Shown: positions 3 to 63,802 of the stretch, piece by piece | Numbering within the stretch: the first letter of the stretch is position 1 | Layout: each line of letters begins with the position of its first letter | DNA from: Mucilaginibacter terrae | GTDB taxonomy: Bacteria > Bacteroidota > Bacteroidia > Sphingobacteriales > Sphingobacteriaceae | Direction of reading: 5' to 3' | DNA: 64,000 bases | NCBI RefSeq assembly: GCF_031951985.1 | Contig: NZ_JAVLVU010000001.1 | Location: forward strand, 2,418,001-2,482,000 | The notes under the pieces: generated by a model | Databases searched by the model: none | Seen by the model: only the letters and a program-made list of their open reading frames with translations | Told to the model about the DNA's origin: nothing | Program-made: the position numbers and the translations under genes

Positions 3-85
3 ATGTCATTTCGAGTGATAACGAAAAACCTTTGACGCACGCTAAGCGATTTGAAAAGTGCTCTCACTATCATTCGAGATGACAT
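3..85. repeat. Imperfect intergenic palindrome with TGTCAT ends
   Basis: The arms at 3-20 and 68-85 are 18 nt each, inverted, and differ at only two positions, both of which could still pair as G-U in RNA. The outer ends read ATGTCATTTCGAG. It lies just downstream of the clpS stop codon. Palindromes with the same TGTCA/TGACA ends occur at 41214-41289 and 63400-63802, so it looks like one of the dispersed intergenic repeats common in Bacteroidota. A role as a transcript-end hairpin is possible but not shown. Confidence 0.6.
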
Positions 86-40987: not shown

Positions 40988-41289
40988 ACGTCATTGCGAA
41001 GCAGTAGCGGGTATTTCGCGGGGTGCTGAAGCAATCCGGGAGTTCAAGGCAGTGCTTTTACTTAATGCAGTGTCCTATTAGCACAGGTAAAGTGATTCTA
41101 CCCACGTCTGTGGATGTACTTTCTTCTTTATACAAAAAATAAAGTACAAAACACTGATGCCGCGAAAAATGGTTTCGTTAGGACAGTGCTTTATTATGAT
41201 ATAAATACCCACCTGTCAGCCTGAGCCTGTCGAAGACTTAGCAAAGTGCTTAACCAAGCGGCGAGTGCTTCGACAAGCTCAGCATGACA
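40988..41289. repeat. Repeat-rich intergenic block
   Basis: Three repeat types lie in 300 bp. A single GTCATTGCGAAGCA arm at about 40990 is related to the ends of the element at 63400-63802. A GTACTTT...AAAGTAC inverted pair is near 41115-41148. An imperfect palindrome has arms 41214-41237 and 41265-41289 (TGTCAGCCTGAGCCTGTCGAAG and its near complement), a form very common between Bacteroidota genes. There is no ORF of note. Confidence 0.6.
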
Positions 41290-63351: not shown

Positions 63352-63381
63352 AAAGCCTTAGCGAAAAGCTAAGGCTTTTTT
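63352..63381 (+). terminator. Rho-independent terminator of the parAB-lepB cluster
   Basis: The perfect 11-bp arms AAAGCCTTAGC (63352-63362) and GCTAAGGCTTT (63368-63378) flank a GAAAA loop and are followed by T6 (63376-63381, partly in the arm). It is a strong terminator 6 bp past the lepB stop. Confidence 0.9.
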
Positions 63382-63399: not shown

Positions 63400-63802
63400 T
63401 GTCATTGCGAGCGATAGCGTGGCAATCTCCACCATGCGTTTCCGAAATGATTAATCATACCAACCCTCGCTTAAATCCTTCCACAATTTGTTTTGACTAA
63501 TAATCAAGTCTATCTTTTTTTGCCTCGAACCTGCTTTTAATTGTTTTTCGCGGTCAATCGCATCATGCACCCACTGAAATTCCTCGTAATAAACCAGTTT
63601 ATTACAATTATATTTAGCTTAAAACCATTTATAAATTTTATTCTTATGCTCCCAAATGCGAGTTTGCAGGTTGTTAGTAACGCCGATGTACAAAACGTCG
63701 TTTTCTTTATTAGTTATGATGTATACGTAATATTGATGTGAGTTTCCAATCATACGGTTAACCTTTTTGATAGAGATTGCCACGCTATCGCTCGCAATGA
63801 CA
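63400..63802. mobile_element. GIY-YIG element bounded by 30-bp perfect inverted repeats
   Basis: The arms 63400-63429 and 63773-63802 are perfectly complementary over 30 nt (outer end TGTCATTGCGAGCG). Between them is a single minus-strand gene, a GIY-YIG nuclease of 100 codons. Beyond the arms the flanks AAAAACC (63392-63398) and GGTTTTT (63808-63814) are also complementary. Related TGTCATTGCGA-type arms occur at about 40990 in this window. Bounded repeats enclosing one nuclease gene suggest a mobile or formerly mobile cassette. Confidence 0.6.
63451..63753 (-). pseudogene. GIY-YIG nuclease with in-frame stop codon
   Basis: ATG 63753 opens MIGNSHQYYVYIITNKENDV, then LYIGVTNNLQTRIWEHKNK: the GIY and YIG pairs and the catalytic Arg32. 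An in-frame TAA lies at codon 45 (63621-63619). The same frame continues AKYNCNKLVYYEEFQWVHDAIDREKQ, then LKAGSRQKKIDLI, to WKDLSEGWYD and the natural stop at 63451. The uninterrupted product would be 100 aa, like the single-domain UPF0213/YhbQ group. It is either inactivated or read through. It lies between the inverted repeats. Confidence 0.75.

Follow-up and report, generated by a model that had tools for sequence, protein, structure and literature searches.

What is a nuclease gene, unaccompanied by any transposase, doing between two perfect inverted repeats? This question is raised by a 403-bp unit of Mucilaginibacter terrae. The unit lies in a stretch of 64,000 nucleotides (contig NZ_JAVLVU010000001.1, positions 2,418,001 to 2,482,000; termed the window below) of a 5.49-Mb, single-contig genome. 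The only gene inside it encodes a lone GIY-YIG nuclease, and its ends resemble CGTC-tagged repetitive extragenic palindromes (REPs). We consider it probable (roughly 0.6) that the unit is a decayed cassette of the autonomous type, in which nuclease and REP form a matched pair and the enzyme, by nicking its own REP, would bring about the spread of both the cassette and short REP dimers.

The unit and its nuclease

The outer 30 nucleotides are the same at both ends (TGTCATTGCGAGCGATAGCGTGGCAATCTC), and the inverted arms can be extended to 35 nucleotides (63400-63434 and 63768-63802) with 94% complementarity. A first-pass annotation, made from the sequence alone, had described a 403-bp unit with perfect 30-bp ends around a single GIY-YIG gene carrying a nonsense codon, and had found no transposase in it; all of these points are confirmed (Table 1). 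The arm begins with a TGTC tag, followed by a stem that starts with AT and a short tail. This layout is that of the CGTC-tagged REP superfamily, which is characterized by a CGTC or TGTC tag, an AT-starting stem of 8-9 bp, a short tail and an arrangement in head-to-head dimers (Di Nocera et al. 2013, PMC3733652). The same survey places CGTC REPs in several phyla, including Bacteroidetes, and lists dRS3 of Neisseria and RPE-4 and RPE-6 of Rickettsia as members. The window arm departs from this description in its stem, which has five contiguous pairs and an imperfect center (-4.3 kcal/mol) instead of 8-9 bp.

The cassette has neither of the hallmarks of an insertion sequence: it lacks a transposase gene, and inspection by eye of the ends of seven cassettes revealed no consistent target-site duplication. 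Nor does it contain a Y1 tyrosine transposase between GTAG REPs, the arrangement that defines the REPtrons of REP-associated tyrosine transposases (RAYTs).

The encoded protein belongs to the GIY-YIG superfamily by its PF01541 domain, by its conserved residues and by its predicted fold. Residues Y11, Y22, R32, E69 and N88 are invariant across 24 aligned rows; these are the catalytic residues of the domain. A structure model of the read-through protein shows a confident GIY-YIG fold (pLDDT 89.5, pTM 0.81), whose best match in the PDB is the UPF0213 protein 1zg2, followed by Slx1. Among solved chains, a comparison by sequence picked out only the single-domain UPF0213 proteins 1zg2 and 1ywl, which have the same fold and size as the window nuclease; by fold they rank 1 and 7. 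No NCBIfam family scored above its cut-off for this protein.

Eight of ten nuclease gene pairs have dN/dS ratios of 0.03-0.13 (dS exceeds 1 in four of these), and dS is saturated in the other two pairs. These ratios indicate purifying selection on the gene. Of 128 matches within the genus, 13 have an internal stop by a hand count, so most copies are open. Therefore, the enzyme is generally maintained, and the window copy, marked as dead by its nonsense codon, is one of the dead ones. The proposal that the unit is a decaying element thus applies to the copy in the window, but not to most members of the family.

Repeats in the host genome

A 26-nucleotide core of the arm has 21 matches genome-wide at up to three mismatches, and a backward-read control has none. 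Within the window, a 13-nucleotide core at up to two mismatches has three matches, where a mean of 1.11 is expected; because 11 of 100 shuffles reach three, this shorter core alone is no evidence within the window. The paired 30-nucleotide identity and the genome-wide arm-core matches are what set the repeat apart from chance.

Solo repeats had been proposed to be scars of lost cassettes. However, of 18 other genomic sites with the window arm core TCATTGCGAGCG, 16 are short head-to-head dimers with an inverted partner within 180 nucleotides (1 of 1800 with shuffled flanks), and for these the scar explanation was rejected. Two broader patterns, GTCATTGCGAG-N-GCAATC (141 matches, spanning two subfamilies) and GTCATTTCGA-N-GAAATC (81 matches), have no match in backward-read controls. 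The genome therefore carries about 222 repeats (141 + 81), as against three lone GIY-YIG genes. The many dispersed copies, mainly head-to-head dimers, are as described for CGTC REPs.

PF01541 has six matches in this genome, three of which are lone proteins of about 100 amino acids. All three lone genes sit between inverted TGTC- or CGTC-ended repeats, each belonging to a different subfamily. Of the other three matches, two lie in long open reading frames (ORFs) and one beside a tRNA-like sequence; the 1.5 kb around each of them contains no REP.

Association of lone GIY-YIG genes with REPs

Four sets of homologous loci were compared. For the genus set, a protein search of 61 genomes gave 128 matches in 54 of them. 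From these, 72 loci were read: 30 from the search, the other two of the host genome and a further 40 taken in the order listed, passing over five rows (four close to a contig start, one partial); some are syntenic orthologues. The cross-phylum set holds the best 80 of at least 557 loci from a scan of 84,980 species, each represented by one genome, and includes four loci with a short flank. The plasmid set holds 12 of 32 matches in a plasmid collection, and the phylum set 28 loci (30 minus two shorter ones). REPs were detected as GTCA with a 5-bp stem, a loop of 4-20 and a C after the stem. This detector is strict; for example, locus L002, whose arms match with a score of 31, does not count as having REPs on both sides. 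As controls, the remaining ORFs of 100 codons or more in these loci were used.

REPs are concentrated close to the nuclease genes. Their density within 250 nucleotides, compared with that beyond 500 nucleotides, is 4.29 versus 0.055 per kb at cross-phylum loci, 3.56 versus 0.102 at genus loci and 4.50 versus 0.544 at plasmid loci; the phylum loci give 4.64 versus 0.43 per kb. Outward REPs lie on both sides of 41 of 80 cross-phylum nuclease genes versus 1 of 173 control ORFs (Fisher test, 1e-23), of 33 of 72 genus genes versus 1 of 303 controls (4e-26) and of 5 of 12 plasmid genes versus 0 of 74 controls; an outward pair is also found in 10 of the 28 phylum loci. The nearest REP points outward rather than inward by 91 to 24 across phyla and by 64 to 25 in the genus. 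A test independent of the detector agrees: flank complementarity of at least 15 is present at 51 of 80 loci, in 157 of 800 mismatched flank pairs and in 0 of 800 shuffles. Similar repeats at unrelated loci account for the high figure of the mismatched pairs. Thus, the repeats are not placed at random relative to GIY-YIG genes; random placement would have told against a cassette.

The same tests bear on the simplest alternative, that ordinary bidirectional terminator-like palindromes happen to surround an unrelated small gene. In its favor, the cassette sits just past lepB, which ends immediately upstream and has a terminator-like hairpin of its own (63352-63378). The identity of the arms at 30 of 30 positions and their dispersed copies speak against coincidence, and the enrichment tests refute it; we regard it as scarcely credible.

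Across 296 genomes of the phylum, the nuclease is present in 70 of 82 REP-bearing genomes and in 92 of 214 others (Fisher test, 2e-11). This co-occurrence is confounded by descent and is given little weight.

Correspondence between nuclease and repeat

The two arms of a locus are more alike than are arms of different loci, to a degree that 0 of 5000 permutations reach. Protein identity also correlates with arm similarity, with a Mantel rho of 0.64 in the genus (33 loci) and of 0.41 across phyla (41 loci). The latter value stays at 0.41 when the comparison is confined to pairs whose hosts belong to different phyla (409 pairs among the 37 loci with a phylum label, four of the 41 lacking one). 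None of these three correlations was reached in 2000 permutations. On the protein tree, REP stem type changes three times in the genus, where 300 shuffles give a minimum of eight, and 14 times across phyla, where the shuffle minimum is 16. This tree is built from 95 columns, and 50 of its 86 inner branches lack resolution. Loci L003 and L252 are the same place; both are in the pooled tree of 89 loci and the pooled Mantel test, and the duplication does not enter the separate genus and cross-phylum figures. Recognition of the REP by the nuclease would be the natural reading of this match.

These results also bear on whether the GIY-YIG gene is only a passenger, either in REP-rich intergenic DNA or in a composite unit of two REPs, with RAYT-like or other enzymes moving the repeats. 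REPs are mostly intergenic, the genome does have one Y1 transposase-like gene, and six REP-bearing genomes (see below) have no nuclease. However, the flanking pattern almost never occurs at neighboring ORFs, and REP type follows the nuclease even between phyla. Moreover, the one Y1 gene of the host has no REP in its 1.5-kb flanks, and in the CGTC survey none of the RAYTs was flanked by CGTC REPs (PMC3733652). A passenger gene is therefore quite improbable.

A RAYT was considered as mobilizer at the window locus and was rejected, as the genome's single Y1_Tnp match (L199, G000:C1:3789351) is 1.3 Mb from the cassette, with no CGTC REPs beside it. That gene lies between 26-nucleotide perfect inverted repeats unrelated to REPs.

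Limits and turnover of the unit

In four pairs of cassettes (L164/L172, L041/L050, L192/L196 and L190/L196, the last within one genome), the shared sequence starts and stops 0-10 nucleotides from the tags. The flanks of these pairs, 1.1 to 3.6 kb per side, have no blastn or tblastx match except one stretch of 32 nucleotides in one pair. Tandem multiplication of gene-plus-REP units is seen at locus L279, which has three genes with a period of about 419 bp, and at locus L280 with its two genes (see below).

The unit is also missing from the same place in relatives. No cassette follows lepB in any of the 22 other lepB loci in which the end of the gene was located, although three hold another REP pair there, and tblastn with the nuclease found no match in any of the 29 other loci from the lepB search. 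The cassette found between sufB and sufC of Azospirillum lipoferum has no counterpart there in A. ramasamyi, A. oryzae, A. sp. B510 or A. argentinense. Of the Sphingobium plasmid records, seven match the query from end to end, and about 360 bp are absent from four others. Two of these four were read: in one, a single fused REP stands where the cassette would be, the one scar of this kind, and the other has no REP. Sinorhizobium K101 lacks two tandem units of S. meliloti Ak57 and retains one REP, and in the comparison of genomes G053 and G015 other REPs stand in place of cassette L040. These comparisons show turnover, not clean insertion. Overall, the first-pass interpretation is partly supported. 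Its core, a family of short mobile or formerly mobile cassettes, holds: lone GIY-YIG genes are flanked by these ends far beyond chance, homology between some copies ends at the tags, and the relatives read lack the unit at this locus. Neither of the two outcomes named in advance as refuting it, random placement of the repeat and fixation of the unit at one locus in all relatives, was observed.

Two arrangements of repeats were seen beside such genes. At the sufB/sufC site on plasmid AZO_p3 of A. lipoferum 4B (L074), a full REP dimer lies on each side of the GIY-YIG gene. Locus L280 (G360:C1:1480000-1486000) is an array of 51 detected REPs, mostly head-to-head dimers, in which two GIY-YIG genes are embedded.

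A possible role for the nuclease in the host

Nucleases of this type are known from Neisseria. The Ssn enzymes (site-specific single-stranded nucleases), said to have been described by the Veyrier group in Nature Communications in 2025, are GIY-YIG nucleases that reportedly cut single-stranded DNA at a repeat (NTS) with hundreds of copies in Neisseria, and the meningococcal enzyme reportedly modulates transformation (a 2025 report). A gonococcal homologue, L077, which may be the published Ssn, is 41% identical to the window protein and adjoins CGTCATTCCCGC repeats. It is therefore conceivable that the nuclease serves its host, for example in control of uptake. Dispersed repeats would then mark incoming or replicating single-stranded DNA for cutting, those beside the gene would be incidental or autoregulatory, and the repeats would spread by other means. 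Such a role would suit the purifying selection on the gene, the large excess of repeats over nuclease genes in the host genome and the relationship to the gonococcal protein. It is less easily reconciled with sharp unit ends in four pairs at unrelated loci, with the tandem multiplication of gene and REPs, with patchy presence among related plasmids, or with the broken copies, which fit an element with turnover. On balance, we consider a host-serving function unlikely.

Proposed mechanism and evidence against it

If the unit is instead a cassette that spreads through its own enzyme, the nuclease most likely recognizes and nicks its own REP (tag, stem and tail), probably when the REP is single-stranded; this preference is suggested by analogy with the cutting reported for a Neisseria homologue. 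From the cut ends, the cassette and the short REP dimers that share its ends would be copied to new intergenic sites, with host repair or replication performing the copying step. Three nuclease-REP pairs, each with its own repeat subfamily, coexist in the host genome. That the enzyme cuts the REP, and that this cutting drives the spread, we infer from sequence comparisons.

Several observations weigh against this mechanism. In 111 alignments within the genus, only 31 of 138 usable homology ends fall within 15 nucleotides of a tag, and others stop inside the cassette or run into syntenic flanks. None of the compared loci offered an entirely clean empty site together with a target duplication. 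The lepB relatives are too distant for one, the spacer has diverged or a REP is kept in Azospirillum, Sphingobium and Sinorhizobium, and other REPs fill the site in G015/G053; the flanks of a second cassette that was tried, L161, are split by rearrangement. No joining activity was found. A detected outward pair is absent in about half of the homologues (39 of 80 across phyla, 39 of 72 in the genus) and in 18 of 28 across the phylum, and some homologues, such as L067, L073 and L075, show no REP-like arm pair. The 12 plasmid loci have no orientation bias of the nearest REP (10 outward to 8 inward). At the gonococcal locus, each side has an outward REP according to the detector, but in the arm pair of best complementarity the tags face inward.

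Recognition is not the only possible source of the match between protein and repeat: a linked unit inherited as a whole would yield such a match too. What the match shows, therefore, is joint travel of nuclease and REP. For the cross-phylum rows the tree has 13 changes of host phylum, about as few as of stem type (14), and therefore the tree alone cannot separate the two. Three arms from the genus of the window fold weakly (-1.6 to -4.3 kcal/mol), with 35 (for the window arm), 36 and 133 of 200 shuffles folding as well; no shuffle equals the strong 8-bp stems of two arms from other phyla. Finally, 12 REP-bearing genomes had no nuclease at the first cut-off, and on rechecking six gave weak matches only and six none at E 0.01. 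REPs can thus exist without a nuclease, since half of these genomes have none detectable; the repeats may outlive their enzyme, or another route may exist.

One of these six genomes, from the same family as the host (G166), carries 392 copies of the GTCATTGCGAG repeat on one contig and has no GIY-YIG relative at E 0.01.

Relation to known systems

The window arm shares with the CGTC-REP superfamily its tag, AT-starting stem, short tail and head-to-head dimers. According to the defining survey, these REPs are without a dedicated enzyme (PMC3733652), whereas here they flank a GIY-YIG nuclease gene. Such nucleases are the best candidate for the enzyme of CGTC REPs. A broader proposal extends this to the entire superfamily, whose missing cognate enzymes would be single-domain GIY-YIG nucleases in hosts ranging from Bacteroidota to Alphaproteobacteria, Nitrospirota, Planctomycetota and candidate phyla. 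Enzymes and repeats together would then form a second class of REP element with an independent evolutionary origin: a strand-specific nuclease, with no transposase, would move its own ends along with thousands of non-autonomous dimers. We put this forward tentatively, with somewhat less than even confidence.

The cassette resembles RAYT REPtrons in having small REPs with one cognate nuclease gene between them and many non-autonomous copies, but it differs in the fold of the enzyme (GIY-YIG rather than Y1) and in the tag. With the Ssn system it shares a single-domain GIY-YIG enzyme and a target that reportedly has very many genomic copies; it differs as a dead copy with a weak-stem arm in Bacteroidota that is seen as a bounded cassette. 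Part of the nuclease-repeat finding is probably already known through that work. Free-standing GIY-YIG homing endonucleases are also selfish nuclease genes without a transposase. However, homing enzymes do not recognize their own mobile DNA (PMC1564403), whereas in the cassette the type of enzyme matches the ends of its own unit. The cassette appears to be a variation on the theme of a REP with a cognate nuclease, here with a GIY-YIG enzyme and as a bounded unit. Among the matches listed in a literature search, no title or abstract opening links GIY-YIG nucleases to REPs.

Many bacterial phyla show this pairing of enzyme and repeat, which may account for the spread of a widespread family of repeats supposedly without an enzyme of its own. 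Should the enzyme of CGTC REPs be a GIY-YIG nuclease, tiny hairpins would have two unrelated ways of spreading, and DNA could be multiplied by a nuclease that has no transposase at its side. Genomes with several matched enzyme-repeat pairs, such as the host with its three, would provide a natural set for the study of sequence-specific DNA cutting.

Other features of the window and related loci

Three further repeats in the window had been noted at first pass, a related arm near 40990 and two TGTCA-ended palindromes, and all are real (Table 1).

Table 1. Coordinates of the cassette and related repeats in the window
Feature	Position	Strand	Remarks
Whole cassette	63400..63802	.	403 bp; outward TGTC tags at both limits
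Left CGTC-type REP arm	63400..63429	+	Tag TGTC, stem ATTGC..GCAAT, tail CTC; tag outward
Single-domain GIY-YIG nuclease pseudogene	63451..63753	-	100 codons; TAA at codon 45 (63619-63621); PF01541, 65.2 bits
Right REP arm	63773..63802	-	30/30 identical to left arm, inverse orientation; tag outward
Lone related REP arm	40989..41037	+	CGTCATTGCGAAG..GAAGCAATCC
Short palindrome	4..84	.	Ends TGTCATTTCGAG / TGTCATCTCGAA; resembles the GTCATTTCGA subfamily of the genome
Short palindrome	41214..41289	.	TGTCA ends; another stem family (TGTCAGCCTGAGC / TGTCATGCTGAGC)

Two loci with GIY-YIG genes in other surroundings were also seen. On plasmid p1 of Planktothrix agardhii (L067), a lone GIY-YIG gene without a REP-like arm pair lies between a type IIL restriction gene and the DISARM gene drmA. 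In the host genome, a different GIY-YIG gene (L005, G000:C1:2700415) directly follows a tRNA-like sequence, part of which is repeated after the gene; judged by eye, this looks as if the gene had been inserted at a tRNA.
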